30,975 nucleotides of DNA from a virus. Positions 2,132-25,298 of this stretch are shown here, one piece after another; position 1 is the stretch's first letter, and the number at the start of each line of letters is the position of its first letter. The translations under genes and the position numbers were made by a program. The notes beneath the pieces are model-generated. The model had not been told where the DNA came from. It saw only the letters and a list, made by a program, of their open reading frames with translations, and searched no databases. The stretch spans positions 1 to 30,975 of IMG/VR virus record IMGVR_UViG_3300025280_000109, one strand, 5' to 3'.

Positions 2132-4243
2132 TTAACGATTCTCCTCTTGTTGTAGACCGACAGACGCTTGAGGTGCGTGTTGTGCATTGTACCTTTGAAT
2201 TTGTTCCAGTACAGTCCCTACGGACCATATAGTACGTTTTTGATCGCCTAATACTTTTCCCACAGGATGATTTAGCATATGACGCGTAAGTGCTTTACCG
2301 TAGTCCGCAGCACGTTGGCCTAGCCCTATAGTTTGCAGTATTTTACCTGTAAATCTAGGACTAGAAAAAGGTATAAACATAAAAAATAACGGGTTAAATG
2401 CAGCACCCGCTGCACCTACGGCTACTGTACGCTGCAAAGCACTAACAGCAGATCCACGAGCTACAAGTGACGATGGAGTCCATCGACGTGAAATTAAACC
2501 TGCAATCCCAGCGTGAATTGACTCACCTGTAACTTTTTCTACTTCATCTATAAGTTGTTTTTTAATTGGATCTGATTGTAATGCTTTGATATAAGACTTT
2601 AGTATATCACTATCTCCTGTACCGGACTCCTTAAATGCACTATATGTTCGTGCTAAATCTTCGCGAATATTTTCATGCCTTATAATACGAGCCCACATAT
2701 TATCTTGACTCATAGGATCATCAAGAAGCTCACGTAAACTGCCAGATTTAGGCAGTAAGTCATTTATGCTATACTGACGTCCTGTATCTAGCGTAGTTGT
2801 AAGTTCATCTAAAGAGTCACGTAGTGTATCGTAAAATGCATCCAAAGTAGGAGCATTGCCTGGGCGATACCTATGAGCAAGTAATTGTTGAATAACTCCA
2901 GGAGTATCTGTAAGGGAATCTCCTATAAGAGCTTTCTTCATATTAGGTAATTGAGTTAAATCTCCGTTTATTTGATCACGTATCCAAGTTATAAGTTGAC
3001 GAGCCTCTGACCCAGGTATATAAACACCTGTATCTACAGGTATATAATCAACTTTACCAGTTTCACGATCATGTTTAAATTTAATTCCTACACCTGCAGA
3101 TTTTAATTTAGTATTAAGTTTAGATACAAAATTAGTCTGAAATGCCATTGAATCGGCTATTAATGGAATAGTTGTAGCAGTACCTTGGATAGCTCCGCCA
3201 CCTTTGGCTCCTCCAAAATATCCTTTAGACCTTATATCTGAAAATGTATCTCCATCTAACCATCCTCTAAATATTTTTTCCATCAACCCATCAGCTTCCT
3301 GCAGAATTATATTTGCATATTGTTGGTTAATAGCTGAAATATGACCCACTGTAGCTGCTTCATCACGAAATCCTCCCGCAATATCAGGATCAGTACTACG
3401 CGCCCGTCTGAAATGTTCCGTTGGAGTTTCTCCAAATTGCCGCTTAAGGTCAGGATCGTCAAACCTACCAAGCCAATGCAATGGATTAAGACCTGCAATA
3501 TCCATCTGAGAATCGGTAAGTCTACCTGCACGTTGCATAGCTTCCAAAGATTGCACGGGCTCGCCAGTTATAAATTCAAGTGCTATACGTCCAAGTATTC
3601 CTGTACCACGCATAAGTGATGCTGTCCCTTTTACTGCTACACTTCCAACCGCTCCCACAGGATCCATGACCATATCTACTATAGGTTGGCCCACATTACG
3701 GGTAACATCCGCAGCTAAACCTGCCGCAGGTCTTACAACACTTCCAACTTTAGGAGAAAGTCCCTCAAGCGCACCCCCAACTCCACGACGCGCCATAGCG
3801 CCTGCTTTTTGAACACTTTGCAATCTGCCCATAGCTCCAAATCCAGGAGCTACTACAGTAGCTTGCCCAAAAGGATCTGTAGCTATAGTACGTTTTATGC
3901 TTTCCCAAGATCCATACTGGTCTTTAAGCGCATCAACTGTTCCATCTAATCCAAGATCATACAAAGCTTCAGCTGTATCTATTGGATTAAATATCATATC
4001 TGCTATTCCAGTAAGTGTGGTTACAAACGATGGAACAATATTACTAGCGAGTTCTGCTCCATACTCACTAGAAAACATATCCATCTTACCTGGATCTTTG
4101 GCCGTTATATTAACAAAATCATTTCTATAACGGGATTCTCCAAAAGTTTCCAGTAAACGCTTAGTTTCTTCAAGCTCCGATACAGTATAGCGAGCTCGTA
4201 ATTGTTGAGGCGTTAATGAGAAATCATTAGGTGATACTGCCAT
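2132..4243 (-). CDS. Large virion protein, possible ejection (internal) protein
   Basis: The product has 703 residues and is not confidently recognised. The N-terminal 130 residues are mixed-charge and helical. A stretch rich in G, A and V follows (about 130-230, with VVRPAAGLAADV and GAVGSVAVKG), then a long polar helical middle. Residues about 605-632 form a hydrophobic segment (VAVGAAGAAFNPLFFMFIPF) that could insert in a membrane. The tail end is glutamine-rich. It is the third of three consecutive large proteins between the tail-hub genes and the tail fibre. In P22- and T7-type phages that place is held by proteins ejected with the DNA; a membrane-active segment would fit. The 11-bp gap to the upstream gene indicates one transcript. 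Function is inferred from position. Confidence 0.5.
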   Translation of the reverse strand: MAVSPNDFSLTPQQLRARYTVSELEETKRLLETFGESRYRNDFVNITAKDPGKMDMFSSEYGAELASNIVPSFVTTLTGIADMIFNPIDTAEALYDLGLDGTVDALKDQYGSWESIKRTIATDPFGQATVVAPGFGAMGRLQSVQKAGAMARRGVGGALEGLSPKVGSVVRPAAGLAADVTRNVGQPIVDMVMDPVGAVGSVAVKGTASLMRGTGILGRIALEFITGEPVQSLEAMQRAGRLTDSQMDIAGLNPLHWLGRFDDPDLKRQFGETPTEHFRRARSTDPDIAGGFRDEAATVGHISAINQQYANIILQEADGLMEKIFRGWLDGDTFSDIRSKGYFGGAKGGGAIQGTATTIPLIADSMAFQTNFVSKLNTKLKSAGVGIKFKHDRETGKVDYIPVDTGVYIPGSEARQLITWIRDQINGDLTQLPNMKKALIGDSLTDTPGVIQQLLAHRYRPGNAPTLDAFYDTLRDSLDELTTTLDTGRQYSINDLLPKSGSLRELLDDPMSQDNMWARIIRHENIREDLARTYSAFKESGTGDSDILKSYIKALQSDPIKKQLIDEVEKVTGESIHAGIAGLISRRWTPSSLVARGSAVSALQRTVAVGAAGAAFNPLFFMFIPFSSPRFTGKILQTIGLGQRAADYGKALTRHMLNHPVGKVLGDQKRTIWSVGTVLEQIQRYNAQHAPQASVGLQQEENR

Positions 4244-4254
4244 TTTTATATCCT

Positions 4255-6657
4255 TTATCTACCGTAAGAAGGTACAGGAGTGTATCGCCCGCCTGCGCCT
4301 GTATAACGTCCGACAGCTTGACCTGCCTGCACTCTTTGCCAATCTCGTCCATGCTGTTGTTGTAGAAATGCTTCTGCCGATCTACTTGATTGTACGCTAC
4401 CTCTAGGATCAGGAATAAGGTAATTAGACCGCTGAGTATAATGTGATGCTACGTTAGAAAATGCATCATAAACAGGCCCAAGTCCAAGTCCTCCAAAGAA
4501 TCTACCTTTACCTTCTTGCGCGGAGAAGTTTCCAGTTCCAGGAGCAATATTACCCATAGCAGGATTCCAAGTTTCCTGAAGTCCAGGATACGTATTCTTT
4601 AAACCCCAAGCATAATTAGAATCTAGTATATCAGTTTGCATACTATGCAAACCCGCTTTAATTGCACGAGGATTAAGTCCAAAATTTAATAAAGATTTAC
4701 GCGTCAGCTCAAATAATGGATTATCAGATGCAGGTCTAAATTGTTCGCTATGTATAACATGTTTCTTAGCGGCTTCCAATGTTGAATCAGATATTGCCCT
4801 AGCATCTCCCTTGACCCAACTATCAAGAGTAGGATCCCAATGGTAAGTCCAAGGCAACAGCCTAGGCTTACTTAATTGTTTAGGCGACGAAGGCCAATCT
4901 AAAGGTTGGGAGGGAAAATCACTAAACTTAGGATATTTTACTCTCCACTCATTTAATAATTGTGCATTTTGAACGCTACCCCCATATCCACTTCTCTCTA
5001 CTTCTTCAAAAGTGGTTTTTAGCGCATTTTGTGCATCTTCATATTCTGCATTTGTATATAATAATTTCTTAACAGATGGTGGTACTATGCCCTCTACTTC
5101 GCCTTCAGCATCTACTCCAAGAGCTCTATTAACAACACCTAATGCGATTGATTTACCTGTCTCAGGCGCGAATGCTCGAGCTTGTCCAGGCTTATACTCA
5201 GGCATATAAATCGGTAGTATTGATGCATCTAAATGTTCTATTGCTTGGTCTATACTTGAAAAACCTATAGCATCAATATTATTATAAATCTCACCAGCTA
5301 CAGTAGTAGTACCTTTAAAAGGTTGTAATGCACCTGCAACAACATCTCCTATAGCTGTATACATAACAGAAGATTGGTGCTCTTTTTCTGCCTGTAAAAC
5401 ATTTAACATACCTGCAAGATTCTTATTAGTAAGAAACCGTTTGTGCAAACCTACAGTATCAACAGTTAATTCATTGCCATCAGCAATATCCATAATACCT
5501 TGGCGAAGATTATCAGCAGTAATATGCCACGATTCTCCAAGATTATTAAAATTATCTGTTAAACGTAGCATATCATCACGCATAATAGCTTCGTCACTAC
5601 CTACACGTAATACGCGTTTTAGTAAATTCTCAAATTGAACTGCACTAATATTAGGATTACCCTCTACTATCCATCTTAGATCCTCACCCTGTTTTATAGA
5701 TTTTCTAATGTCAGGACCTTCTAATACCATTGCGAAAGTAGAATCAATATTATTACGTTTTTCTAATGCTTGGCCGTATACAGAGCCAGTATCTCTAAGT
5801 TCTGTATGTATAGACTGATTTACTGCAATCTGACTATTTCGACGGTTATTAACAAGCTCTGTAATATTCTTTTGTTTTATTAACTCTTCTTGGGCTGTAG
5901 TTGAGCGCAGCTTAAGATCCCACATTCGATCTTGATGAGCTGTAGATATACGAAGTGCGCGATCAGATGCCTCCCGATCCCTTTGATCAGATATAGCATT
6001 AAACAATTTGCCTTGATAATCACGTTGCAGCGTACCTATAGATGTATTGTAACCTCGGTCAAACGCTTCTGCACGCGCATCTGCAAACCAACCACTAAAT
6101 ACAGGAGCATCTTTAGCTCTTGTACCAAGATTTCCTAATACATCACTGAAATGCTCTACAGGCTGAAACTTAGAAGTAAATTCAGGTGCAGTAGCAGCTA
6201 CAAAACCACTTTGATCTGCAATTTCCGCATAAGCAGGCCTAGATTCTGATACTGCACTTGTAAGTCTCGCAGCACCTTCTTTCGCGCCAAGTGCTTCAGC
6301 CTGCGAAATCATCGTATTACGAATTGTATCATACGCACTTACAGCAGTAGAAGCATACCCAAGTCCAGTACCTAAGCCTCTCCAAAGTTTTCCTGCTCCT
6401 GAAGACTCATAAGGATCTATCTCAGGCTCTTCTTGGTACACAGGCTGCATTGGAGCACGTCCACCAAGCCCAAAGAAAATATTGGCCATGCCAGCTTTAC
6501 GCTCAGCCCCTCTCCGCCTACGCTGAGCCTCTTGCTGCATCTTAGTAACGCGATTATAGTACTTTTCTTGGTTTCTCCCTTCGAGGTAATTGCCAATTCC
6601 CGAAGAAACCATGCTACCTGCTTGAAGTGCAAACGGTAGCCAAACTGGAGGAGCCAT
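4255..6657 (-). CDS. Large virion protein, possible ejection (internal) protein
   Basis: The product has 800 residues. The start ATG at 6657 has AAGGAA about 8 bases upstream. The N-terminus is a hydrophobic, possibly amphipathic segment (WLPFALQAGSMVSSGIGNYL), followed at residues 30-60 by a strongly basic stretch containing RRRR. The body is mostly polar and helix-forming with many Q, N, E and R, and the last 60 residues are rich in G, Q, R and Y. No enzymatic motif was found. As second of three large proteins before the tail fibre it is a candidate internal or ejection protein. A structural protein of the tail hub is the main alternative. Confidence 0.5.
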   Translation of the reverse strand: MAPPVWLPFALQAGSMVSSGIGNYLEGRNQEKYYNRVTKMQQEAQRRRRGAERKAGMANIFFGLGGRAPMQPVYQEEPEIDPYESSGAGKLWRGLGTGLGYASTAVSAYDTIRNTMISQAEALGAKEGAARLTSAVSESRPAYAEIADQSGFVAATAPEFTSKFQPVEHFSDVLGNLGTRAKDAPVFSGWFADARAEAFDRGYNTSIGTLQRDYQGKLFNAISDQRDREASDRALRISTAHQDRMWDLKLRSTTAQEELIKQKNITELVNNRRNSQIAVNQSIHTELRDTGSVYGQALEKRNNIDSTFAMVLEGPDIRKSIKQGEDLRWIVEGNPNISAVQFENLLKRVLRVGSDEAIMRDDMLRLTDNFNNLGESWHITADNLRQGIMDIADGNELTVDTVGLHKRFLTNKNLAGMLNVLQAEKEHQSSVMYTAIGDVVAGALQPFKGTTTVAGEIYNNIDAIGFSSIDQAIEHLDASILPIYMPEYKPGQARAFAPETGKSIALGVVNRALGVDAEGEVEGIVPPSVKKLLYTNAEYEDAQNALKTTFEEVERSGYGGSVQNAQLLNEWRVKYPKFSDFPSQPLDWPSSPKQLSKPRLLPWTYHWDPTLDSWVKGDARAISDSTLEAAKKHVIHSEQFRPASDNPLFELTRKSLLNFGLNPRAIKAGLHSMQTDILDSNYAWGLKNTYPGLQETWNPAMGNIAPGTGNFSAQEGKGRFFGGLGLGPVYDAFSNVASHYTQRSNYLIPDPRGSVQSSRSAEAFLQQQHGRDWQRVQAGQAVGRYTGAGGRYTPVPSYGR

Positions 6658-6703
6658 AGATTTATTCCTTCACAATGTGAATTAATGGGCTTGGTATGTT
6701 AAA

Positions 6704-9700
6704 TTAATCCCAATCCGAAGGGATAGGTTCATTAGGAAAAATTGTTGAATATTGATTAACCCATGCATTATAACGAATTAAATCTTCAGATAGATTGGTA
6801 GTAAGGGGCTCTGTGGGCTTTGGATTATCCCTCAGCCAGTTATCCCTTGTTTGTGCAGGAGTAGCATATGGATCATCAGTAGCCGTAAAGCGCTCATGCA
6901 CATCATAAGCTTCTCGCTGATTTTTTACATTTTGCCATTCACGTGTCGCTTTTCTCCACTCAGCTACTCCCGCATCTCCTTCAGGAAAATCTAAACGTTC
7001 AGGTGCAGGATTACGTTGCTCCCACCCTTCTGCCGTTGGGGCTTTATAATTAGGATCTAAACTACGAGCTAAAAAATCTTCTTCACTAATACTAAATCTA
7101 CCTCCAACAGCTTCTTGCGCCCTTCGGGCTCCAAACACATCCATTTGACGTTGCCATTCACGATCTTCATCACGCATACGACGATCAGTCTCATAATCTT
7201 GCCTTGAAGTGTCGTATCGTTCTGCTTCAAGTGCTGTAGCAGCATCATAACGCTGATCTTCTAGGGCATAACGATCTTGACGTTCGGTTCTACTTTGTCT
7301 AGCCTCTCGTGATGCAAATGTATCACCTCTACGTTGACTCGTTCCATAAAGTTCTTCTTCGGCAAGCTGATTACGAAACGCTTCACGTTCTCCAGCGTCA
7401 CGTGCTAATCCAATACGTTCTCCCTCGTAACCTAAACGCTCACGTTCAAATCCTGCGGCTCGATCGGCGTGCCGCGAAGCGAGGGTTCCTCGACGTGGGT
7501 CTACATCAACTCCTCCATATAATTCTTCCCTAGCCAACGCACGCTGAAGTCTATTCTGATCTTCTCGAGAAGTAATATCCCTTGCTGCTAAACCTTCTCG
7601 AGATCCTATTTCAGCAGCACTTAAACGCCCACGCAAAGCACGCTCTTGGGCGGCCATGTCTTCGCGTGAAGTTAGTTCTTGCCCAAATTGCTCGCCTCGT
7701 TGAGCAAGTTCTTTAGCAGCTACTGTACTCGGGCCCCCACGTCCCGATGCTATCATGCCACGTTCAGCTTCGCTCAACTCACGACCGTATAGATTAATTT
7801 CCTGAAGTCGTGATTGCTCAGTAGTACCTTCACGGGCTAAAGTACGATCTAAAGCAGCTTGTTCTTCTCGTGAAGTTATTTCACCTTCTGCCAATTTTTC
7901 CCTAGATCCTATCTCAGCAGCGCTTAGCCTCCCTCGTAATGCACGTTCTTGTGATGCCAACGTTCCGCGTTGTTCACGTTCAAGCGCAGATTCACCACGC
8001 GCAAACCTTCGCGCTGCATCAGCCTCTCTTGCAGCAAGCGTACCTCGGCGAGGATCTACGTCAACACCACCATATAGTTCTTCGCGGGATAAAGCACGTT
8101 GCAATCGAGCTTGATCCGTGGTCAATTCTCGGTCTAACGCAGCTTCGCCTTTAGTAAGTGCTCGGTCTAATTCTGCTTGTTCTCCCGTAAATTCTCGACC
8201 TACCCGAGATTCGCGAGCTGCTAAAGTTTCACGACCCCTGATAGAACGTCCACCTGTGACAGCTGCTAATTCATCTTGCGAAGGTTCACGTCCTAGTTGC
8301 TGCTGTAATGCCTGCCGAATTGCAGTATCTCGACCCACAGCCATTTCAAGTCCAGGATCGATATTTAATGTATCTAGCGATATCTCTTCTGCGCCTCCAT
8401 ACATTTCTTGCTCAGCAAGGGCCATACGACGACGTTCTTGAGCAACCTGATCTCTACGTGCCGCCTCAGTAACTCCAACTCTACGACCTTCGAAGCCTTC
8501 ACGAACTAAAGCCGAACGTTCTATCTCTGCCTGCTGAGCGAGAGCAATCTGACGCTGTGATAGCCCAGCCGTTTCCATCTCATCGAGTCTACGCCTTTCA
8601 GCTGCTATTTGCGCTCTTTGACCTGTAGATGCTAGCGTACGGTCCCATTCCATAGGATTCGCAGACCCGTACAACTCTTCACGGGCTAAAGTTCTAGCAA
8701 GCGCAGCTTGTGAAGTTTCCTGGCCAAACTGAGCTTGTTGCATACCTTCCCGAGATTCCCGTTCACGTCTTCCCTCAGCCTCAGTTAAGCGCCTCTGAGC
8801 GCCTGCCTCTCTAGCAGCTAAAGTCTGTTCTCTACGTCCATCAATTTCCCTAAATCCCATCAACTCTTCACGAGCTAAATCTCGCCCAAGGCCTGCCTCA
8901 GTCGCACGAGCTTCACGTTCTAGAGCAGCCTCTCCAAACTGAGCAGCTTGCATATCACTAGCTGCTCGCCGATCTAGACTAGCTTGACTACTCCGTAAAT
9001 TACGCTCTGCCAGGCCTTCAGTCCTACGCAACCCACGTTCCATAGAAGCCTGTAGAGCTTCTTGCTGAAGAGCATCACGGGCTAGAGTATCTTGACTGCC
9101 AATTTCCCCTAAAGCCAGTTGTGCGGCTAAGGTCCGTTGACGATCCTCACCTACTCGGCCCGTAGGCCCAACCTCACCTAACAATTCCCCACGACGAAGA
9201 TCTAATTCTTGCTGCTGCATAGTCTGTGCAGCACCTCTAGCAGCATGTTTCGTCCCATACAACTGTTGAGCTGCTAGTGTCCGATCTCCTGCCCACTCTC
9301 CCATAAGCCCTGCGTGTTGATATAACTCTTGCTGCTTACGTTGTGCACGAGCTTCAGTTTGTCGTGTTACATCATCACCGCCAAGATCAGTGCCAAATGT
9401 CTGAGCTAAGCCTAGCCTATAAGATAGATCCTGTCTCTGCTGATCAACAGTACGCTGTCCATCATACTGCCCTACTATACCAGCACGTTGAAAACCTTCC
9501 TGGACTTGTGCAGCTCTTTCAGCTTCACGCTGCCTATCACGATTCAAAGCATCCTGGGACAAATACTGCCTAGTGCCCAAATCACGAGAGAATCGGCCCA
9601 TACGTTCAGCTTCAGACTGCTGCCTGCCTGCAATTCCCATCTGACCCGTTGTGCCATACATCCCTATGCCCTGCTGTATGGCCTGACTTACACCGGCATC

Positions 9701-9961
9701 ACGCTGAGCCTCAAACTGTGCTCCTATAGCCTGCTGCCCTCGAAGTACCCCAGACTCAAACTCCCCAAACTGACTAGCAGTTTTCCCACTCCCTCGCAAC
9801 ACACCAAGTCTATTTAGACGCTCTGATAGATCCTGACGCGCCTTCTCGGCCTGTGCTTGATAGTCAGCCTGAGCAGCTTGTTGACGTTTCTCATATGGAT
9901 CAGCAGTAAGACGCTTAGATATAGCACCTTCTAACTGTCCTCTGAAACTTCCTATAGCCAT
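6704..9961 (-). CDS. 1085-residue Q/E/R/A-rich repeat protein, candidate internal virion protein
   Basis: This is the longest gene in the window. Residues 1 to about 930 are almost entirely A, R, E, Q, L and G and predict as nearly continuous helix or coiled coil. Degenerate repeats recur, built around ELYG, then TLAxRE(A/S), then an arginine-rich helix. Two long units are nearly identical: LYGGVDVDPRRGTLA occurs twice, and so does ERALRGRLSAAEIGSRE. The last 150 residues differ, being richer in P, W, D and N (for example PAPERLDFPEGDAGVAEW), and may form a separate domain. The stop of the upstream gene overlaps its ATG as TAATG. Length and helicity recall tape-measure or ejection proteins. 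In the context of a short-tailed phage an internal core protein is more likely. Residue bias is extreme, and no catalytic motif is visible. Confidence 0.6.
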   Translation of the reverse strand: MAIGSFRGQLEGAISKRLTADPYEKRQQAAQADYQAQAEKARQDLSERLNRLGVLRGSGKTASQFGEFESGVLRGQQAIGAQFEAQRDAGVSQAIQQGIGMYGTTGQMGIAGRQQSEAERMGRFSRDLGTRQYLSQDALNRDRQREAERAAQVQEGFQRAGIVGQYDGQRTVDQQRQDLSYRLGLAQTFGTDLGGDDVTRQTEARAQRKQQELYQHAGLMGEWAGDRTLAAQQLYGTKHAARGAAQTMQQQELDLRRGELLGEVGPTGRVGEDRQRTLAAQLALGEIGSQDTLARDALQQEALQASMERGLRRTEGLAERNLRSSQASLDRRAASDMQAAQFGEAALEREARATEAGLGRDLAREELMGFREIDGRREQTLAAREAGAQRRLTEAEGRRERESREGMQQAQFGQETSQAALARTLAREELYGSANPMEWDRTLASTGQRAQIAAERRRLDEMETAGLSQRQIALAQQAEIERSALVREGFEGRRVGVTEAARRDQVAQERRRMALAEQEMYGGAEEISLDTLNIDPGLEMAVGRDTAIRQALQQQLGREPSQDELAAVTGGRSIRGRETLAARESRVGREFTGEQAELDRALTKGEAALDRELTTDQARLQRALSREELYGGVDVDPRRGTLAAREADAARRFARGESALEREQRGTLASQERALRGRLSAAEIGSREKLAEGEITSREEQAALDRTLAREGTTEQSRLQEINLYGRELSEAERGMIASGRGGPSTVAAKELAQRGEQFGQELTSREDMAAQERALRGRLSAAEIGSREGLAARDITSREDQNRLQRALAREELYGGVDVDPRRGTLASRHADRAAGFERERLGYEGERIGLARDAGEREAFRNQLAEEELYGTSQRRGDTFASREARQSRTERQDRYALEDQRYDAATALEAERYDTSRQDYETDRRMRDEDREWQRQMDVFGARRAQEAVGGRFSISEEDFLARSLDPNYKAPTAEGWEQRNPAPERLDFPEGDAGVAEWRKATREWQNVKNQREAYDVHERFTATDDPYATPAQTRDNWLRDNPKPTEPLTTNLSEDLIRYNAWVNQYSTIFPNEPIPSDWD

Positions 9962-10272
9962 TAGTGTACTCCCAGTTTTCTAACTGTTTCAGGTCCAATA
10001 GGCTTGTACATCAGCATAGAACGACGAACAGTAATAGGCTGATCTAAGGAACTATTCTCATATCTTATCTGCGACACAGGGCTATAACCATGCAGATCTG
10101 TGTCATTTACAAAAGCCGTAGTTGACGATCGAATTGCAGAAACACCAATAATAAACTCTGTTACTAGAGCATCCGTAGGATCACCTACATCAAATATATC
10201 CGACTTAGTGATAATCCCAGGACCAGTCTGAAATACCGAAGTATTATACAGCATTGAACTCATGCCGAGCAT
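9961..10272 (-). CDS. Hypothetical 103-aa protein in the tail-hub cluster
   Basis: The frame is open from a TTG at 10296, but that start lies deep in the upstream gene and lacks a good binding site. The ATG at 10272 (MLGMSSMLYNTSVF), with GGTGG close upstream, is preferred; ATGs at 10263 and 10254 are also possible. The protein contains DVGDPTDALVTEFIIG and a C-terminal RRSMLMYKPIGPETVRKLGVH-type end. It has no signal peptide or clear membrane helix. It overlaps the 3' end of the tail-hub gene by about 29 bases and its stop overlaps the next start as TAATG, so it is translationally coupled on both sides. Its slot corresponds to that of a tail needle or minor tail protein in P22-type gene order, but it lacks the coiled coil of a needle. 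Function unknown. Confidence 0.6.
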   Translation of the reverse strand: MLGMSSMLYNTSVFQTGPGIITKSDIFDVGDPTDALVTEFIIGVSAIRSSTTAFVNDTDLHGYSPVSQIRYENSSLDQPITVRRSMLMYKPIGPETVRKLGVH

Positions 10273-11464
10273 ACAACCACCGTACTCTCGTGGCAATACT
10301 AATAGGTGGAGTAGCTGCGGTAGTTGCTTTTACAGTAAATGCTGAGGTATTATCATTAGTACCAGTATTATGTTTAAATAGCAATCCATCATCGTAACCT
10401 CCTAGATGCGGAAGATCATCAAAATAAGCTCCTGAAACACGTGTATTTCCAGTATACACCCCTACCCATTGACGGAGCTTATAGTTCCAGATCAACGCAT
10501 AATTCATATACTGCTGATTCGCCCCATAAGGTACCCAGAACCAAATCTGGTCATCGGAAGTAACCAAATGAGCAAAACTATGAATTAACCTATCTTTGTT
10601 TAAGTTATCCCAGAACTCTGAACCATCGAAATTCCCAGATACCTTTACAGGCGGCTCAGATCCACCCCATTCATATATTCCATCACGGCGCATAAACAAC
10701 TGATTACCAAATTCATCAGTTATAACACTACGTCTAGCGATCGTCCCTCTGTCTGCACGGCGTTGAATACTATAAGGTATGTCTGCATTACCAGTTGGGA
10801 ACAAACCGTAGATGCCATTTTCGTTATGCAATCCTAAGAAACTCTTAACAGGCGCAGCACCAGTGATCTTTTCGTCAGTTATATAATAATCATTTGCACC
10901 AAAAGACTCAATATCAGTAGTCGATGAGTAATGAGCTAATCGCTCACCTTGGTTCGTAGACACATACCAAAGTCTATTATCCCAGAATATAGGCAAATCC
11001 GCAGAAGTAACACTCGAAGATCCCATTCCGGCTGCGGCTATATTACCTGCTGCTGCTGTCCACTTTATTGGAGCATTATTTCCAATACCATTAGTTCCGA
11101 CTAAGGTACCTCCAGCATTAGTAGTCATCCAGTACTTATCTACATGATCCGTGATCGAGATCGACGCTGTACGATCAGTCCATGTTCCACTAACATCCTC
11201 AAAAAACTTATCACCAGCAATTACAAACACCGCGCTAGATGACGCAGTGAACCTTTGTTTTCCTACACCTACTATAGACGGAGTACCACTAAGTGCTCCA
11301 GAGATATACTTAGCAGTACCCCGCCTAGTATTCAACGATCCTGCATTATCGAGAAACATATTCTCGATTGCAGCTAATACGTTTGGTTGTAAGTCAATAG
11401 CAGGCACAGAGTAATTAATTGTCTGCCAAGGACCGTACTGTATTCCTTCAGCTTGTATTGCCAT
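10244..11464 (-). CDS. Tail-hub / DNA-stabilisation protein, P22 gp10-like (tentative)
   Basis: The 406-residue product is rich in W, Y, G, N and D and reads as repeated short beta strands. Examples are DNRLWYVSTNQGERLAHYSS, FGNQLFMRRDGIYEWGG and DQIWFWVPYG, the pattern of a beta-propeller-like hub. N-terminal features include LDNAGSLNTRRGTAKYISGA, which resembles the 'stabilisation protein' (gp10) and tubular protein B families of short-tailed phages. It directly follows the gp4-like adaptor gene with a TAATG overlap, as in P22-type order. In that system the protein would close the portal channel after packaging and hold the fibre and needle. Assignment rests on sequence character and position. 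Confidence 0.55.
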   Translation of the reverse strand: MAIQAEGIQYGPWQTINYSVPAIDLQPNVLAAIENMFLDNAGSLNTRRGTAKYISGALSGTPSIVGVGKQRFTASSSAVFVIAGDKFFEDVSGTWTDRTASISITDHVDKYWMTTNAGGTLVGTNGIGNNAPIKWTAAAGNIAAAGMGSSSVTSADLPIFWDNRLWYVSTNQGERLAHYSSTTDIESFGANDYYITDEKITGAAPVKSFLGLHNENGIYGLFPTGNADIPYSIQRRADRGTIARRSVITDEFGNQLFMRRDGIYEWGGSEPPVKVSGNFDGSEFWDNLNKDRLIHSFAHLVTSDDQIWFWVPYGANQQYMNYALIWNYKLRQWVGVYTGNTRVSGAYFDDLPHLGGYDDGLLFKHNTGTNDNTSAFTVKATTAATPPISIATRVRWLYARHEFNAV

Positions 11465-12171
11465 TAGGAAGCTACCTGTAATGATCCTTCTTGGACAACA
11501 AAGTCAAACTGACCAGGTATAGAATCTCTACGTCCCATACGGAACTTACGATCCGACGATGTAGTTCTATTATACATTAAGCCAGTTTGTACATAGTTAT
11601 TCTTGTAATTGTTTTCTTGCGCGGCTCCTTGCGGATCACCTTTCTCAGAATGATATTGTTCTGAGACTCCATACAGCACCGCAGCTTGGAACCACACAGG
11701 TGCATAGGCATCGAAATCAGTAGTTAGATTCGATTCTGCGAAATCAGGCACATGAGCAACATATTCATACGTCACAGTTGCAGTTGAGTCTGGAGTAGGA
11801 TATAACGTGATCTGCATTGCACCTGCCGAGCTTTCATTTACTCCACTATGAAACAAAAACCTAGCATTTCCAGTCTCAGACCTATCTATGTCAAGTTCGT
11901 CAATATAACTCTCTGTAACAATCTTTACAGGATTATCATTAGTAGTGTCTTTAACATGTCGTAGATGTGCTACATCAGACGCTAAATCATACTCTGCTGT
12001 ACTACTAGACGTACTAAACGTACCAGTCTTATGCCGAAAGACCCACGGATGAGACAATATCTCAGCCATAGTCATATTAGCATATTCTATCGCATTTTCA
12101 CGATAGGTACTGTTACTATACGCTAGACCAGCTCTTCGCAGAGCCATGTCTAATATAGTTTGCGGAGTCAT
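11464..12171 (-). CDS. Head-to-tail adaptor, P22 gp4 / tubular protein A-like
   Basis: The product has 235 residues. The N-terminal half begins with helices (TPQTILDMALRRAGL, then NAIEYANMTMAEILSHPW), followed by a beta-rich part with TAEYDLASDVAHLRHV and a C-terminal helical segment around AVLYGVSEQYHSEKGD. That layout is typical of the adaptor proteins that bind under the portal in short-tailed phages (P22 gp4, T7 gp11 type). It lies downstream of the capsid genes and directly upstream of the tail-hub gene, which supports the role. A long-tailed phage head-completion protein is the alternative. Confidence 0.6.
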   Translation of the reverse strand: MTPQTILDMALRRAGLAYSNSTYRENAIEYANMTMAEILSHPWVFRHKTGTFSTSSSTAEYDLASDVAHLRHVKDTTNDNPVKIVTESYIDELDIDRSETGNARFLFHSGVNESSAGAMQITLYPTPDSTATVTYEYVAHVPDFAESNLTTDFDAYAPVWFQAAVLYGVSEQYHSEKGDPQGAAQENNYKNNYVQTGLMYNRTTSSDRKFRMGRRDSIPGQFDFVVQEGSLQVAS

Positions 12172-14008: not shown

Positions 14009-14974
14009 TTAGGTCAACGCAGTAGCGACACCGTGGCGCCGTGCGTTGTTGATAACAAGCTGGCAACCGAATACGATGTATGCAACCATCGCAAACTGAT
14101 TTACCGGCTCCTTGAACGCCGTCTTCGCAAAGTTCTTACCCTGCTGTATCTTCAACTTCAGATACTTGCTATTGATAAGATATGCGTGCTGCGACGGACA
14201 ATCACGGTCATACTGGATCGTGGCACCACGGAATATGGGAGAACCCGCATCCGCCTTACCAGTCTCGCCAGCAGCCAATCGAGCATACCCAGTACCTTCG
14301 AAAAGGTTCTGCATATCACCGAACACCGTCAGAGTAGTAAAGATATGCGAAGGCGTATCATTACCCTCAGAGCAGCTATTCCAGACAGCACCCAAACGCT
14401 GAGTACCGACATTGATGTTGCTCGAAATGCTATCTACATCCGAAGACGTAGTATCAGCCTGATTCCTCCACCAAGACTCATTAGCACGATTAATACCCAT
14501 GACCGTGCCACTCGTCGGCGCATCAGCAATCAGATCCTGGAGACCAAGCGTGGCCTTACCAGTTTGTGCGCTGAAGAACGCCGCGTTAACGGCATCACGA
14601 GCAGTCAACATAGACTGCTGAGTCTTAGCTTCAAGAATCTTCTTCGCAGCATCACTCAGACGACCTTCATCACGCTCAGTCATCGAGATAGTAATGGGAG
14701 TAGCAGTGTATCGCCAGGGTGCGTATCCCATCGTGATACCATCAACAGCATCTGTGTTGACCGTATCGTAACCATCAAACCAGGTGGCAGAGTTCTTACC
14801 ATACAGCAAGTCCTCTTGGATCTCCTTACCACCGGTTTCTACTTCCGCATTCGAGGACAGCATCTTCAACAACGGATACTCATCAAAGATATTATCCGTC
14901 AAACGCTTCCGCTTGGAACGCATCGTGAGAGTCCACGCAGCATCCCAAGTTTCAGTGGTGCTAGTAGCAGCCAT
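14009..14974 (-). CDS. Major capsid protein
   Basis: The product has 321 residues, starting MAATSTTETWDAAWTLTMR at an ATG with GAGG upstream. The N-terminal part (RKRLTDNIFDEYPLLKMLSS) and the following EIQEDLLYGKNSATWFDGYD resemble the N-arm and E-loop region of HK97-fold coat proteins. It then contains ITISMTERDEGRLSDAAKK, SHIFTTLTVFGDMQNLFEG and PIFRGATIQYDRDCPSQHAY. The last type of block (replacement of a surface by 'I(Q)YD..CP....Y.IN..YLKL') is typical of the C-terminal part of such coat proteins. It sits directly after the scaffold gene and before the decoration-like gene, the normal place. Fold assignment is by pattern; the position makes the role fairly safe. Confidence 0.82.
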   Translation of the reverse strand: MAATSTTETWDAAWTLTMRSKRKRLTDNIFDEYPLLKMLSSNAEVETGGKEIQEDLLYGKNSATWFDGYDTVNTDAVDGITMGYAPWRYTATPITISMTERDEGRLSDAAKKILEAKTQQSMLTARDAVNAAFFSAQTGKATLGLQDLIADAPTSGTVMGINRANESWWRNQADTTSSDVDSISSNINVGTQRLGAVWNSCSEGNDTPSHIFTTLTVFGDMQNLFEGTGYARLAAGETGKADAGSPIFRGATIQYDRDCPSQHAYLINSKYLKLKIQQGKNFAKTAFKEPVNQFAMVAYIVFGCQLVINNARRHGVATALT

Positions 14975-16034: not shown

Positions 16035-16437
16035 GCTTCTTCTCCAGTGATTTAAGATCCTCGTCTCCATTAATAAACTCTGTATGGTTCTCGGTATTCT
16101 TCTTACGGGGCTTGTAGCCCTCGGGACCGTGATCTGGACCTTGGTACTCTTCAGGATACTCATGAGTCTTCGATCCACCTACGGCATCCGCGGCTTCTAT
16201 ACAATTATACTTCTTGAGCAATCTCTGCTTGTGTGAATAACTCTCTACTACTTCACCAAACCCAGGATGATACTTGCCGTACATACCAGGATTATGCGGG
16301 TTAAAATCCACGATTCCTGTAATACGACCATAATGAATCTTCATATCTTTACCGCATTTACACACAGGAGTCTTAGCTACGACTTGATCGGTCAGTTCGC
16401 AGCCACACTCACAGTAATAATCATGATTAACAGCCAT
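16021..16437 (-). CDS. Zinc-ribbon protein next to the portal gene
   Basis: The product has 138 residues. The N-terminus carries C9, C11, C13, then C26 and C28 (YYCECGCELTDQ, PVCKCGKDM), a probable zinc ribbon. The middle has PHNPGMYGKYHPGFGEVVES and the C-terminal part is charged and probably disordered. Small proteins with this ribbon are common beside the portal gene in environmental phages; some resemble the FmdB regulator family. The ATG overlaps the portal stop as TAATG. Whether it is structural or regulatory cannot be told. Confidence 0.65.
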   Translation of the reverse strand: MAVNHDYYCECGCELTDQVVAKTPVCKCGKDMKIHYGRITGIVDFNPHNPGMYGKYHPGFGEVVESYSHKQRLLKKYNCIEAADAVGGSKTHEYPEEYQGPDHGPEGYKPRKKNTENHTEFINGDEDLKSLEKKHGFS

Positions 16438-18509
16438 TAGCCTGTCATACCTCCTTGACCTGTCAGTGTTGCTACATCGGCAGTAGCTGCTTGCTGAGTT
16501 TTCTGAGCATTAGATCTAACTTGACCTATGATACCTTCTTGACTATTCAATAACCTGCCATCTACTGAAGGCTGGCTTCCGCCCCCCGCTCCTCCGCTAG
16601 CCATAGCAGACTGCATCATTTGCTCATGCATTGCCATATGCTGCTGCACTATCTGTAGTATCTGCTGTTGCTGTTGTGGTAACATCTGCTGGAGCTGAGG
16701 TAGACCCATAACAACATCAGGATTCTGTTGTTCCATATGAGCCATATGATCCATGCCTTCTTCGACAGGAGCCATTTGACCCTGAAGCATAAGGCTAAGT
16801 TCTAGCTGAATCAACGCATTCAAATCACCATCAGCGCCCTTGAATAGTCTTTCTACCGAACGCTTCCTAAAGGACTTAATCAAATCCCTAGTTACTTCAG
16901 TCTGGTCTATCATAGGATTACCAACAAGGCGATCATACAACAGCACCGAGTTCTCCTGCTCTAATTCCTCCACCAATGGATGCATAGAACCAGCGTCTAG
17001 ATCTAACATAAAATCAAAGTTAAAATCTTCACTGGTAAGTACCCGGTATTCTACACCTGAAGGGTCTTTAGCGACATTCAGCATAAACGTCTGGGGGATA
17101 TAACGTATATCCTGGAACATCCTAAATAGATTCCCTACAATGGTAGTATAAACACCTGCTACTTTTGCTTGCATCCATTGGCGGTTGAGAGAACCTTGAG
17201 ACGCTATGAGTGCACTTTCTGTAGCAGTCTTTCGGCCCTCTGAGCCTCCCGCAAGATCACTTACATGGAGACTCTGTTCTTCGTAACCTCGTGCGTCGTT
17301 CTCGATACCTAGCTGATCCGAAGGTATGTTTCCCCAGGAAGCCTCACGGATACTTGCGATATCATGAAGTCCGATTACATCGCCGTCTTTTGCATCCCTG
17401 ACGTTATCTACAAGATTCGGATTCCGCTGAATCTCTGCTTCATTAGCCCATACAACACGCGGGAATCTTCGCAGAATATCAACACGCCGACTCAAGGACT
17501 CCACAATAATATTCTGAAGATCCTCTACATACTTCATAGGAGGCTCAGGAAAGAACGAACTTTCTACAGTGTCGAACTTCACTGGAATATACTGAAACCC
17601 CTTAGACATTATGAACCCAGGAGCTTCTTCAAGACCTACGAGATCTTGGCCATCATAGATCGATCGAGTCTTAATGAATGGATGAGACTCCGCATGGATC
17701 TCGTTCTCGTGACCATCTAGGAACGTAATAAGTCTACGGTTCAGCCTATCGTGGACTTCATACAACACCACCATGTCACGCTCGGCTTTGGCACCCTGCA
17801 CATGCTCGTCTGCGTTATCCGCATCATACTCATCGCCATAGTTTAGCAACGCAGTATCTGTAGCTGATGTGTACTCTGACGATCCTGTGAAATCCCGAGG
17901 AATCTTGTATCTTGGGTCACTCTTCAAGATCTCGAATGGTACTTCAATACGCTCAATTATGTATTCTGCGTAACCCAAGTTCTGGGGAGGACACTTAGGA
18001 TCTACAAAAACATTAAAAGGCCTAACACGCATGACACAAGGAAAATCATCTTTGAATGCATCGTTAGTTACATACGGAGGCATCGAATCGTCACCAGAGG
18101 GATTATATCCCATCTTGATCCAACCTACACCACAGAACAACGCATCAAACATCGCCTGATGGATCTCAGCCTTTGCATCCATTAAGTCCAATGCGTTATT
18201 AGCTGCGCGTTCCATCACAAGCGAGATACCTTCGAGTTCCCCTGCCACACGTTCGATATTAGGCTTAGCATTCACAAACACTTCGGGGTAATGGAATGCC
18301 ACTGACGATATGATCTGGCGTACTAATGGATACATCCTAGACACATGAATGATCTCATCTTTATCGAGACCTGGGATATCTAGCTTTAGCTCGTAAGCCG
18401 CTAGTAATTTCTCCCATGACCGATGCTTAGGTTCCATGACCCTTTGCACTCGATCAATCGTCTTACGCCAATACTCACGATCTTTATTATTTAATTTAAT
18501 ATCGGCCAT
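16437..18509 (-). CDS. Portal protein
   Basis: The product has 690 residues and a typical size for the portal of short-tailed phages. It starts with YWRKTIDRVQRVMEPKHRSW and includes RMYPLVRQIISSVAFHYPEV, then the core with GVGWIKMGYNP, DFPCVMRVRPFNVFVDP and EYIIERIEVPFEILK. It also has the long stem helix PPMKYVEDLQNIIVESLSRR. The C-terminal 100 residues are rich in Q and M (LQQMLPQQQQQILQIVQQHM), a probable helical barrel or disordered tail. It sits one base after the large terminase stop, as in most phages. It should form the dodecameric ring at one vertex through which DNA is packaged and released. Confidence 0.85.
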   Translation of the reverse strand: MADIKLNNKDREYWRKTIDRVQRVMEPKHRSWEKLLAAYELKLDIPGLDKDEIIHVSRMYPLVRQIISSVAFHYPEVFVNAKPNIERVAGELEGISLVMERAANNALDLMDAKAEIHQAMFDALFCGVGWIKMGYNPSGDDSMPPYVTNDAFKDDFPCVMRVRPFNVFVDPKCPPQNLGYAEYIIERIEVPFEILKSDPRYKIPRDFTGSSEYTSATDTALLNYGDEYDADNADEHVQGAKAERDMVVLYEVHDRLNRRLITFLDGHENEIHAESHPFIKTRSIYDGQDLVGLEEAPGFIMSKGFQYIPVKFDTVESSFFPEPPMKYVEDLQNIIVESLSRRVDILRRFPRVVWANEAEIQRNPNLVDNVRDAKDGDVIGLHDIASIREASWGNIPSDQLGIENDARGYEEQSLHVSDLAGGSEGRKTATESALIASQGSLNRQWMQAKVAGVYTTIVGNLFRMFQDIRYIPQTFMLNVAKDPSGVEYRVLTSEDFNFDFMLDLDAGSMHPLVEELEQENSVLLYDRLVGNPMIDQTEVTRDLIKSFRKRSVERLFKGADGDLNALIQLELSLMLQGQMAPVEEGMDHMAHMEQQNPDVVMGLPQLQQMLPQQQQQILQIVQQHMAMHEQMMQSAMASGGAGGGSQPSVDGRLLNSQEGIIGQVRSNAQKTQQAATADVATLTGQGGMTG

Positions 18510-18510
18510 A

Positions 18511-19914
18511 TTAGTTTAAAGCGTGATAACGTCCACTATGTGCAGGTTTCCCAGGAAGTGCATCTAATATATCCTGCCCGCTACCCATAATCGGGTCATC
18601 CTTGTGTTCTGCATGACGATACATATGTACCATCCCATATCGCCACTCATCAGCCGCATGATCTTCTGCGTGAGTATCTACATCCTCGGGGTTCTTATCC
18701 GCGCGAGGCAATGCAGGTACAGTACGCATGAAATCATCGTTCCAACCCTCGAATGCATAGAACTTCTCATGGAGTAGTGCGTCTCGACATATACGCCAAC
18801 CATTCACACGATCGTTATTAGCGCGAGTTATCGGCAACTCAAAATCCGAAAACACATCTGCCGCACTCTTAGTCATCTGCTCCGTGAGCCTACGCTTCAC
18901 CCACATACTAGGATCAGAATAAATCATAATGGGCATCCGACCATTTGTATACGGAAACCCTGAGATCCTTTGTACTATCTCTTCTGCGTGCTGTGATGCT
19001 GTACGATCACCCTGGTAATATCCCATCAGACGATAGATGTTATAGTCAAAATCTATTGCGTAAAGCCCAAAGCTCGTAGGTGCTGATTCACCGTAATCTA
19101 GTGCGCCATACAATGCCCACGATGCTGGGATCTCAAAACTCTTCGTTAAGATCTTATGCCTATTCCACTGTGTAAAGAACTGACCTTGGTATATGTCCCA
19201 ATCACCATTTAAGTATGCTCTACGTAATGCTTCGTCTTTGATATTCTTTAGTGATTCTACGTACCTAGGGTCAGCTTCCATCAGAGCTGGATTGTCGAAC
19301 ACTCGGGCAGAAATAAACTTATAGTCCTTTGGGTTCTCTGCTTCCTCGTGCATCTGATCAATCCACAATCTCTTGCTCCATGCATGACCTACACCACCAG
19401 GGTTTCCCGTAGCCCACATCACAGGCTTAATGGCTTTGTTCGAGGTTCGGCACGAACTCGATATGTACTGCCACTGGAACTCCGTGAACTGTGTGACCTC
19501 TTCTACTGCTACGAAGTCAAACTCCTGTCCCTGATAGTTAAACACATCGTCTTCGTGTTCTGCATGACCGAACATCAACTCACTGCCATTAGGCAAGTAC
19601 ATTACGCCTTCGCTCTTGTTGTACCAGTTTCTGATCTTTGGAAACTGCCTAAACAAAGGACGAATGTGATTACCATCGAGCTGCTTGAATGTCCTACGAA
19701 TCAATAATCCTGTTGACCCAGGATTCTCCATGAGCATGATGAGCATTATGATTCGTGATGCGTAGCTTTTCCCCCCACCCCTAGCGCCGCCATAAAAAGG
19801 ATACCGCACACCATTACGCACAGCTTCTAATAGCTGAAACTGCTTAGGTTGTAGAGCTACATTGAACTCTAGGTCTTCTAAGCTCTCTGTATGGACCCTA
19901 CCGCGTGTCGGCAT
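18511..19914 (-). CDS. Terminase large subunit (packaging ATPase and nuclease)
   Basis: The product has 467 residues. A Walker A motif lies at about 42-50 (GGARGGGKS), followed by IIMLIMLMENPGSTGLLIRR. Walker B with the catalytic acid is at 131-138 (FDFVAVEE), and ATGNPGG at about 167-173 suits the coupling motif. The nuclease part shows D272 in ALDYGES, D333 in MIYSDPSMW and D417/D421 in EDHAADEW, the three acidic sites of an RNase H-like fold. It drives DNA into the procapsid and cuts concatemers. It precedes the portal by one base and its start overlaps the end of the 217-aa gene. Confidence 0.93.
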   Translation of the reverse strand: MPTRGRVHTESLEDLEFNVALQPKQFQLLEAVRNGVRYPFYGGARGGGKSYASRIIMLIMLMENPGSTGLLIRRTFKQLDGNHIRPLFRQFPKIRNWYNKSEGVMYLPNGSELMFGHAEHEDDVFNYQGQEFDFVAVEEVTQFTEFQWQYISSSCRTSNKAIKPVMWATGNPGGVGHAWSKRLWIDQMHEEAENPKDYKFISARVFDNPALMEADPRYVESLKNIKDEALRRAYLNGDWDIYQGQFFTQWNRHKILTKSFEIPASWALYGALDYGESAPTSFGLYAIDFDYNIYRLMGYYQGDRTASQHAEEIVQRISGFPYTNGRMPIMIYSDPSMWVKRRLTEQMTKSAADVFSDFELPITRANNDRVNGWRICRDALLHEKFYAFEGWNDDFMRTVPALPRADKNPEDVDTHAEDHAADEWRYGMVHMYRHAEHKDDPIMGSGQDILDALPGKPAHSGRYHALN

Positions 19915-23476: not shown

Positions 23477-23512
23477 TATACTTTACTTTATACTTTACTT
23501 TATACTTTACTT
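23477..23512. repeat. Three perfect 12-bp tandem repeats
   Basis: TATACTTTACTT is repeated three times without change (23477, 23489, 23501). They run straight into the ACTTGGTA array. They may be part of the same regulatory block or a slippage-prone AT tract. Confidence 0.8.
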
Positions 23513-23516
23513 TATT

Positions 23517-23674
23517 ACTTGGTACTATGTAGTTTGAAGTATACTCGGTACTAAGTAGTTTAACTTTGTACCATGTATACTCGGTACCATATGGTTTAGC
23601 GTATATTCTACTTGGTACCACTTAGTACTTTGTAGTATTACTTGGTATTACTTGGTACTACTTTGTACTTTATA
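23517..23674. repeat. Octamer array ACTTGGTA, cluster 2
   Basis: Exact ACTTGGTA starts at 23517, 23610, 23640 and 23650. One-base variants occur at 23543, 23579 (ACTCGGTA), 23563, 23627, 23660 (ACTTTGTA) and 23620 (ACTTAGTA). Several steps are 10 bp or multiples near it. The array ends four bases before sigma-54-like site B. Two inverted copies (TACCAAGT) follow at 23833 and 23874. The whole stretch 23445-23999 holds no gene. Confidence 0.65.
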
Positions 23675-24936: not shown

Positions 24937-25235
24937 CTTCTACGCCCTAAATGGTTGTTTTTATTGAGTTTAGATCAAACTTATGCACAAACTTCTACCA
25001 AACTTCCACACTTAAACCCTTTAAAAACAATATGTTAGAAACTTCTACAAACTTCTACACCCCCCTTGCCCCCACGCAGCCAGAGAGGGAAAATAATATA
25101 TATAAAATATATATATATAAAAATACCCCTTCGTCGGCGAGATCCCAAGGGGCATGTAGAAGTATGCAGAAGTTTGCTAAGTGCTTTAAAAACAAAGACT
25201 TAAGGTGTAGAAGTATGGTAGAAGTTTGGTAGAAA
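24937..25235. other. Candidate replication origin: inverted arrays of GTAGAAG iterons around an AT core
   Basis: CTTCTAC occurs at 24937, 24992, 25042 and 25052 (with CTTCCAC at 25003). The complement GTAGAAG occurs at 25156, 25207 and 25218 (with GCAGAAG at 25166 and GTAGAAA at 25229). Neighbours are spaced 10 or 11 bp, so they lie on one helix face. Between the arms is a run of alternating A and T (25092-25125) and a hairpin CCCCTT/AAGGGG (25126-25152). This is the layout of an iteron origin with an unwinding element. The frames visible in it on both strands are by-products of the symmetry; 24915-25393 holds no convincing gene. Confidence 0.55.
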
Positions 25236-25298
25236 TTTGCATAAGTTTGCTTTAAGTACAATAAAAACAAGGACTTAAGACATGGGAAAAATCTTCCC

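Follow-up and report, generated by a model that had tools for sequence, protein, structure and literature searches.

The window (the whole stretch of viral DNA analyzed, 30,975 nucleotides) carries a minus-strand open reading frame at 6704–9961 that starts with ATG and encodes 1085 residues, confirming the repeat-containing ORF picked out in the sequence-only reading. The surrounding module runs in the order terminase, portal, capsid, SU10-type adaptor, nozzle, the 1085-residue protein, two large genes and a putative fibre, the last assigned by position alone, with no family match.

Genes and features of the virion module

18511–19914, minus strand: large terminase (family search)
16437–18509, minus strand: portal (PHROG portal, 1.7e-6; P22_portal just under its cut-off)
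14009–14974, minus strand: major capsid protein (phrog_9953, 3.9e-39)
11464–12171, minus strand: adaptor, tubeA (Pfam SU10_adaptor, 49 bits against a cut-off of 27)
9961–11464, minus strand: nozzle gene, tubeB, split here by a frameshift into ORFs 10244–11464 and 9961–10296 (in relatives intact, at 504 aa)
6704–9961, minus strand: 1085-aa predicted helical repeat protein (from ORF and composition)
9317–9961, minus strand: conserved N-terminal region, residues 1–215 (dN/dS about 0.15 against the relative L002)
9614–9907, minus strand: family core, residues 19–116, containing LNRLGVLRGSGKTASQFGEFESG; the part detectable in distant lineages
7112–9094, minus strand: repeat zone, residues about 290–950, with predicted helices between TLA-like and LYG motifs and loops from LYG to TLA
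8246–8392, minus strand: non-repeat island, residues about 524–572, the best-modeled stretch of the full-length model
8033–8086 and 7478–7531, minus strand: doubled 18-mer REELYGGVDVDPRRGTLA, copy 1 (residues 626–643) and copy 2 (residues 811–828)
7898–7951 and 7595–7648, minus strand: doubled 18-mer QERALRGRLSAAEIGSRE, copy 1 (residues 671–688) and copy 2 (residues 772–789)
6704–7111, minus strand: variable C-terminal region, residues 951–1085 (dN/dS about 0.7 against L002, from 75 alignable codons counted from residue 941)
4255–6657, minus strand: second putative internal virion protein, 800 aa (by position; no family match)
2132–4243, minus strand: third putative internal virion protein, 703 aa (by position; no family match; apolar segment near residue 606)

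The nozzle assignment draws on a ten-sequence profile that matches the solved "nozzle gp16" entries 8zkk (E = 0.0041) and 8zkm (E = 0.022) collinearly over positions 80–337; the value of 0.0041 is modest, since with a shallower nozzle profile the CRISPR protein 5wti scored 0.0014, a match taken as chance. Matches to phrog_3287 ("virion structural protein," 5e-15 to 8e-24) occur in six of the seven nozzle-place proteins, and matches to phrog_511 ("internal virion protein"; E-values 1.4e-9, 9.8e-6 and 1.2e-4) in three nozzles; the nozzle of the distant relative L060 weakly matches phrog_5107, the family of phage Mx9 (0.00032). Between the nozzle proteins of the window group and the Mx9 group hhalign gave no significant match, though one alignment spans 331 columns. 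No tail-tube or tail-chaperone gene was recognized in the window; three ORFs lying between capsid and adaptor lack a family match. A tubeB gene with candidate ejectosome genes behind it has served to recognize podoviruses (PMC10386132). Judged from its gene content, the window probably comes from a short-tailed virus of bacteria, and the 1085-aa gene lies between the nozzle and putative tail-fibre genes, where podoviral ejection proteins are encoded.

The residues A, R, E, Q, L and G are indeed abundant in the protein, at 71% of the first 900 residues and 66.6% of the whole, although the earlier description "nearly all" overstates their share. A hydropathy scan found no membrane-type segment (best 19-residue value, 0.29). 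Searches of Pfam, PHROGs and PDB sequences for named families were empty or insignificant, and no sequence or profile homology to known ejection proteins was detected.

Age and spread of the repeats

The repetition is dispersed and seen at the protein level; Tandem Repeats Finder (minimum score 40) listed no array within the gene. As the sequence-only reading had noticed, units are doubled in different codons: the two REELYGGVDVDPRRGTLA copies share 78% and the two QERALRGRLSAAEIGSRE copies 80% of their DNA, with identical amino acids. Because L002 has both units in both copies, and because motif spacing is strongly non-random, the repetition is more than chance. Sister copies within one genome are 72–80% identical in DNA and orthologous copies in the window and L002 are 89–96% identical; the doubling therefore predates the split between the two, ruling out recent DNA duplication as the sole source of the repeats, the contrary case that the same reading had raised. 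Sister copies are separated by 10–14 synonymous and 1–2 counted nonsynonymous steps at 18 codons, so that synonymous change is saturated or near-saturated while the residues are identical. These comparisons support the view that the doubled units are old and under purifying selection, in agreement with the earlier proposal that the protein is selected while its codons drift. Against L002, divergence is fastest in the C-terminal region and conservation best at the N terminus, with a dN/dS of about 0.3, in part alignment noise, in the repeat zone.

Complete clade proteins number seven, counting the window's, and span 792–1178 aa. Distant relatives were found via the major capsid protein, with gene order inspected in 37 of 79 capsid loci; eight complete counterparts at the equivalent place span 690–1620 aa. 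A core of about 95 residues joins clade and distant counterparts, whose repeats appear dissimilar. Of the 12 distant panel loci, 10 had their positional gene detected with the own-clade profile; that of L104 was missed but was found by another lineage's profile (6e-4), and that of L087, truncated where its contig ends, went undetected. In L060, L093 and L104 about 390–1080 residues, partly Pro/Gly/Gln-rich, precede the core. The L055 counterpart and Mx9 p88 both end in Peptidase_S74, "chaperone of endosialidase," a domain linked to trimeric fibres. The L112 counterpart matches a tape measure PHROG weakly (0.0056), and a match of L104 to PF21009, above its cut-off, was taken as composition. No relative was found in the phages collection or in one scan of genome_contigs. 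Aligned with seven relatives, the window protein mostly keeps its segment order while parts are gained, lost or replaced; module reordering is not claimed, as off-diagonal matches stem mainly from shared motifs.

Predicted helical geometry of the repeat segments

Segments from TLA to LYG have lengths quantized in helical turns (at 3.6 residues, R = 0.81 for 27 non-redundant helices; none of 20,000 jittered sets was as regular), after 13 of 58 segments longer than 70 residues were dropped and the remaining 45 were reduced to 27 at 60% identity. Just two of the helices of at most 70 residues (53 and 48) come from the window protein itself. The regularity is lost when the loop is added (R = 0.30, p = 0.057), and loop length by itself shows some (R = 0.52, p = 0.0003). 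Among close relatives, length shifts of 7 and 44 would fit whole turns and one of 45 would not. Whole-turn spacings recur in two of three other repeat types. All motif expressions were composed after viewing the sequences, and those for lineages B and C were later widened (before widening, the scan had intervals of 131 and 135, a motif being skipped). All 42 intervals in lineage C (L104) are 7, 11, 18 or 29; the L055 type conforms in part only, its spacings including 5, 12, 13 and 37 beside 7, 11 and 18.

Across eight proteins, hydrophobic lags of 5, 9, 11, 18 and 29 are enriched and those of 3, 4 and 7 are not, ruling out a heptad coiled coil. A single helix held by E/R salt bridges was also rejected, as four window-lineage zones show no E-to-R enrichment at i+4. 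The wheel analysis was confined to helix interiors, because motif ends inflate the signal via the conserved LAREE ending. It reveals two opposite hydrophobic stripes (0 of 1000 permutations); a one-stripe term is significant too (R = 0.26, p = 0.004), one stripe being stronger. Lineage C (L104) has one hydrophobic stripe at 3.6. The repeat segments thus appear to behave as α-helices whose lengths change by whole turns, so that each helix face would be kept while modules are gained and lost.

Single-chain AlphaFold2 models are weak (pLDDT 54.7 and 71.2, pTM 0.22 and 0.33), with blocks 531–570 of the full-length model at pLDDT 80–86. The helix is broken at five of six LYG sites; in the full model the helix runs on through the LYG-type site at residue 369 and a break without LYG falls near residues 692–697. 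Fold searches brought up nothing in BFVD or PDB that reached E = 0.001. The long rod proposed earlier is therefore supported as regards long α-helices (turn-quantized lengths, AlphaFold2 secondary structure) and not as a classical coiled coil, there being no heptad signal.

Proposed role in the virion and comparison with known systems

By sequence, the protein has a conserved core of about 95 residues and, behind it, many segments with an α-helical spacing and face pattern; its place and function in the virion are inferred. The reading we favor, at about even odds, places it first among three large ejection-type (internal-virion) proteins of an uncultured podovirus, where it would be an unusually long version assembled from repeats. 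The earlier suggestion of a rod within the head or crossing the envelope is plausible because the gene sits behind the nozzle gene; such a rod may vary in length and precede the DNA into the cell. Helices could pack side by side via their two stripes, as hairpins within a chain or with neighbors in a ring; the rod would be stored in the head or neck, exit via the nozzle ahead of the DNA, and line or extend a conduit across the envelope. Module number could tune its length, much as 11- and 18-residue helical repeats do in the tape measures of long-tailed phages.

The main rival reading casts the protein as a tail needle of giant size or a central tail fibre: helical chains would form an oligomeric stalk, plugged into the nozzle by the conserved N-terminal region and bearing a variable tip that meets the host. 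We consider this unlikely. The gene does lie directly behind the nozzle, as needle genes do (P22 gp26, SU10 gp18), and P22 has the same order, needle after nozzle. SU10, of the same adaptor family, by number has needle gp18 after nozzle gp17, with ejection proteins at gp20–24 (PMC9509320). The Peptidase_S74 ends of L055 and the positional counterpart Mx9 p88 would suit a fibre, and the fast-diverging C terminus and well-conserved N terminus a tip and a plug. Yet the window lineage has neither the heptad pattern of those needles nor a single hydrophobic stripe, though lineage C has one; several hundred helical residues would far exceed the 260 Å of the SU10 needle (PMC9509320) unless folded back, and the long extensions before the core in L060, L093 and L104 would be odd for a plug.

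A flexible, low-complexity head or scaffold-like filler, in which composition matters and repeats are incidental slippage, would account for the extreme composition, the fast divergence of the repeat zone and the low model confidence. It is nonetheless improbable, given whole-turn quantization that vanishes when the loop is included, two further repeat types with whole-turn spacing, two-stripe helix faces and doubled units whose residues are identical despite saturated or near-saturated synonymous change. A further alternative, in which the gene encodes an ordinary tape measure protein and the phage has a long tail after all, is very unlikely: the adaptor is SU10-type, the preceding gene is collinear with solved proteins named nozzle, and no tail-tube or tail-chaperone gene was recognized, even if one could hide among the three unmatched ORFs between capsid and adaptor. 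The 11- and 18-residue repeats in tape measure proteins of several phages (PMC5099701), periods also present in lineage C, and the weak L112 match speak for it.

Returning to an ejected rod, a bolder and rather unlikely extension would make it a podoviral analogue of the tape measure, with interchangeable whole-turn helix modules, module number setting the reach of a trans-envelope conduit and stripes joining copies into a tube. If true, one genomic position would have been filled in at least three lineages by differing repeats, each a solution of its own. Few virion components are as poorly understood as podoviral ejection proteins, down to how their length fits the cell envelope; the family offers a natural length series (792–1178 aa within the clade and as long as 1620 aa outside it), the whole-turn rule predicts which deletions would be tolerated, and the core motif lets annotators tag large nozzle-adjoining genes in metagenomic podoviruses.

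Among known systems, the phrog_6121 proteins (Mx9 p88, Stenotrophomonas phage BUCT555, Bradyrhizobium phage ppBjS10J-1), labeled "virion structural protein," come from phages whose capsid is distantly related to the window's; there, the adaptor-place gene, the nozzle-place gene and a single small gene precede them. At 282–451 aa they are shorter than the 690–1620 aa seen here, and Mx9 p88 ends in Peptidase_S74 while the window protein has no Pfam domain. The core looked alike by eye, but no homology was detected (hhalign probability 0.2%, no significant hmmsearch match among 985 ORFs), and the 1085-aa protein has no profile match to phrog_6121.

The TP901-1 tape measure is described as largely helical, with repeats of 11 and 18 residues, its authors holding that helical periodicity outweighs side chains; swapping one repeat for six or eleven alanines had little effect, and length there is therefore not strictly locked to whole turns (PMC5099701). 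The window protein shares lags 11, 18 and 29 with such proteins, and lineage C 7/11/18/29; unlike a siphophage tape measure, it sits in a podovirus-type module, matches no tape measure family and has no membrane-type hydrophobic regions. In the φX174 H pilot tube, hendecad and heptad helices form a DNA conduit with a lumen mostly of Gln, Asn and Arg (PMC7354561). The window protein is likewise R- and Q-rich with two-stripe helices; unlike H, its helices are broken by LYG-to-TLA loops and it has no PDB sequence match. First ejection proteins of the gp14 type are reported at 181–240 aa with 4–5 predicted membrane helices in nearly all (PMC8954989); ours, at 1085 aa, is 4–6 times longer than such outer-membrane pores of about 200 aa, lacks membrane helices and shows no detected homology to them. 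Sf6 gp12 forms a decameric channel (PMC4755594), and gp15- and gp16-like ejection proteins vary widely in size (PMC8954989). Like the T7 gp14/gp15/gp16 set, the window has three large genes behind its nozzle.

Doubled units of the repeat protein

The repeat protein is encoded directly behind the putative nozzle gene, in a window of 30,975 bases that constitutes one entire IMG/VR virus record:

6704-9961, minus strand: repeat protein, 1085 aa
9961-11464, minus strand: putative nozzle gene (tubeB)

Over its first 900 residues, 71% are A, R, E, Q, L or G. The sequence-only reading had reported one long unit doubled with differing codons and a second unit also doubled, and two 18-residue units, REELYGGVDVDPRRGTLA and QERALRGRLSAAEIGSRE, are indeed each found twice in the protein, in differing codons; the TRF output contained no tandem array within the gene. 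Both copies of both units are also present in the relative L002. For REELYGGVDVDPRRGTLA, the DNA identity between window and L002 is 94% (copy 1) and 89% (copy 2), compared with 78% (window) and 72% (L002) between sister copies; the corresponding values for QERALRGRLSAAEIGSRE are 96% and 94%, compared with 80% and 76%. As orthologous copies are closer in DNA than sister copies, the doubling is older than the window/L002 split, and recent DNA duplication only, which that reading had named as what would refute its proposal, is not what the copies reflect. Synonymous change between sister copies is saturated or nearly so (proportions 0.71–0.92) with identical amino acids, the 1–2 nonsynonymous steps counted being probably artefacts of the path taken through six-codon residues. 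The units are therefore under purifying selection, as had been proposed. Across the gene, dN/dS between window and L002 is ~0.15 in residues 1–215; it reaches ~0.30 in residues 216–940 and ~0.7 in the C-terminal region, both of these higher values including alignment noise.

Family core and lineage-specific modules

IMG/VR scans for relatives returned 4 and 15 loci. Seven distinct complete clade proteins, including that of the window (1085, 1062, 946, 792, 1178, 1055 and 937 aa), are strongly conserved in their first ~215 residues; beyond this, modules are gained, lost and replaced, in mostly collinear order. A capsid scan gave 79 loci, and in the 37 examined for gene order a large gene (or its start) lies behind a ~500-aa nozzle gene wherever the contig extends enough. 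The eight complete distant proteins that were read have 842, 1204, 1357, 1184, 1163, 1620, 690 and 993 aa; the positional ORFs of L072 and L079 have 393 and 360 aa from the first ATG (the L072 frame is open for 730 aa). A profile of the ~95-residue core (residues 19–116), built from the window clade alone, was run on a panel of 1391 ORFs; of the 12 distant loci, 10 gave the gene at this position, with E from 5e-10 to 4e-4, and no further ORF scored below 0.4. The repeats behind the core look different from lineage to lineage.

Post-core repeat modules, judged by eye
Window: LYG/TLA modules
L060, L082, L088, L092: LIN/QTER modules
L102, L104: RGQD modules
L055: LGRGQL-type modules

Peptidase_S74 lies at the end of the L055 protein (7.5e-9) and likewise of Mx9 p88. 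EF-hand/dockerin-like loops were seen in the N-terminal parts of L068:7071-7595 (EF-hand_1 at 0.0006, below Pfam's cut-off) and, by eye, of L104:8705-13564 and L112:8782-11760; some distant counterparts have long Pro/Gly/Gln-rich N-terminal stretches.

Helix-turn quantisation and helix faces

In ten clade proteins, a TLA-like motif and the LYG that follows it lie 27, 31, 34, 38, 42, 45, 48/49, 52/53, 56 or 63/64 residues apart (the 45 of 58 segments that span ≤70 residues, of which the window contributes 53 and 48 only), with steps mostly of 3 or 4, one α-helix turn. At a period of 3.6 residues, the 27 non-redundant segments have a Rayleigh length of 0.81, a value attained in 0 of 20,000 sets jittered by ≤5 residues. 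The best period is 3.63, with 0.68 at 3.5, and counting distinct lengths once gives R = 0.76 (p = 0.0002). The control LYG-to-LYG distance, loop included, gives R = 0.30 (p = 0.057, n = 32); loop length alone carries a weaker turn signal that is not fully explained (R = 0.52, n = 29, p = 0.0003). Spacings in two further lineages are also whole-turn numbers: LIN-to-LIN in lineage B is 55, 58, 62, 66, 69 or 73 in all 23 intervals across four related proteins, with R = 0.95 overall and 0.89 (p = 0.002) when each distinct value is counted once, and RGQ spacing in lineage C is 7, 11, 18 or 29 in all 42 intervals across two proteins, with R = 0.96 by either count (p = 0.01 on distinct values). Those of L055 are mixed (7, 11 and 18, plus 5, 12, 13 and 37).

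Hydrophobic residues in eight proteins are enriched at lags 5, 9, 11, 18 and 29, with no enrichment at 3, 4 or 7. When 22 non-redundant helices (582 residues) were anchored at the LYG end and their conserved ends excluded, hydrophobic residues formed two stripes on opposing sides (second-harmonic R = 0.43, 0/1000 permutations, best pitch 3.60–3.62) and alanine occupied the two faces between these stripes (R = 0.27, 0/1000). Such helices can each accommodate two neighbours, which can be consecutive hairpins within a single chain, where the LYG..TLA loop would make the turn, or adjoining chains of a sheet or barrel. L104 of lineage C has one hydrophobic stripe (z = 27 at 3.6), and a 5.5 signal is present in two of three lineage B zones and absent from the third. 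AlphaFold2 modelled the full protein poorly (pLDDT 54.7, pTM 0.22), with long helices that are broken at 5/6 LYG-type motif-search sites and unbroken at residue 369. Residues 575–880 were modelled better (71.2, pTM 0.33), as helices of 51, 50, 28, 9, 69 and 45 residues with breaks at LYG sites and one extra near residues 692–697. Fold searches gave no match at E = 0.001 or better.

Gene order, proposed virion role and known systems

In the module, large terminase and portal come first, then a scaffold-like gene (labelled from position) and the capsid gene, which matches phrog_9953 at 3.9e-39. Next are three ORFs and an SU10-type adaptor, scored at 49 bits against a cut-off of 27. A ~504-aa protein and the repeat protein come after it, followed by an 800-aa protein, a 703-aa protein and a putative fibre. 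The ~504-aa protein is, from profile comparisons, most likely the nozzle: a ten-relative profile matched 'nozzle gp16' (8zkk, 521 aa) over positions 80–337 at E = 0.0041 and, at E = 0.022, 'nozzle of release VP1' (8zkm). The first of these values is modest by itself, as a shallower profile hit a CRISPR protein at 0.0014. When seven nozzle-place proteins were compared with PHROGs, six matched phrog_3287 'virion structural protein', with values of 5e-15 to 8e-24, and the one from L002 gave no match. A passage of PMC10386132 describes such podoviruses as marked by tubeB then candidate ejectosome genes, with internal virion genes and next fibre genes to the right.

In the window, a frameshift near 10244-10296 breaks the nozzle gene in two. 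Relatives have the gene whole (504 aa), and a single frame (358 aa, 2250-3326) spans the place in the near-identical contig L003, so the record probably contains an error here. L003 itself looks misassembled, its pieces overlapping by ~61–136 bases at three joins when aligned to the window, with broken reading frames. The family phrog_5107 is labelled 'amidase', yet its member Mx9 p86 (L034:18089-19699) stands at the nozzle place, and the L060 nozzle shows a weak match to the family; the label is possibly wrong. In L004, the 881-aa second internal protein (5329-7974) matches Glucosaminidase weakly and below threshold (0.077) where its counterparts are gapped or badly aligned, and a cell-wall enzyme domain may have been swapped there. 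Elsewhere in the window, the stretches 24976-25059 and 25207-25239 contain short repeats around CAAACTTCTACA and, farther along, the reverse complement GTAGAAGTTTG and might mark an origin or regulatory site, and tandem arrays of a 12-mer (×3.6, 23477-23520) and a 10-mer (×6.2, 23608-23669) lie near the switch from minus- to plus-strand genes.

The comparisons demonstrate a conserved core, phase-locked helix-like modules, varying module number and selection on doubled units. The main rival to the preferred reading is that the repeat protein is a giant tail needle, which we regard as unlikely but retain because an excerpt of PMC9509320 has the SU10 protein numbered next to the nozzle as the needle. 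A long-tailed phage is very improbable; no tail-tube gene was recognised, but one could lie among the three ORFs before the adaptor, for which family searches gave no match. The L002 counterpart of one of them matches a head protein family (3.5e-5). On the preferred reading, the repeat protein would be an internal virion protein, ejected ahead of the DNA, that would extend or line the DNA conduit. No protein of this kind was named in the titles and abstract openings that literature searches returned.

The repeat protein is likened to tape measures and pilot tubes by its mode of working, with membership in neither claimed. It may work as do the pilot tubes of hendecads and heptads described in part of PMC7354561, and likewise as do tape measure proteins, with their 11/18-residue repeats; in an excerpt of PMC5099701, helical periodicity is judged to matter more than side chains, although substituting six or eleven alanines for one repeat changed little.
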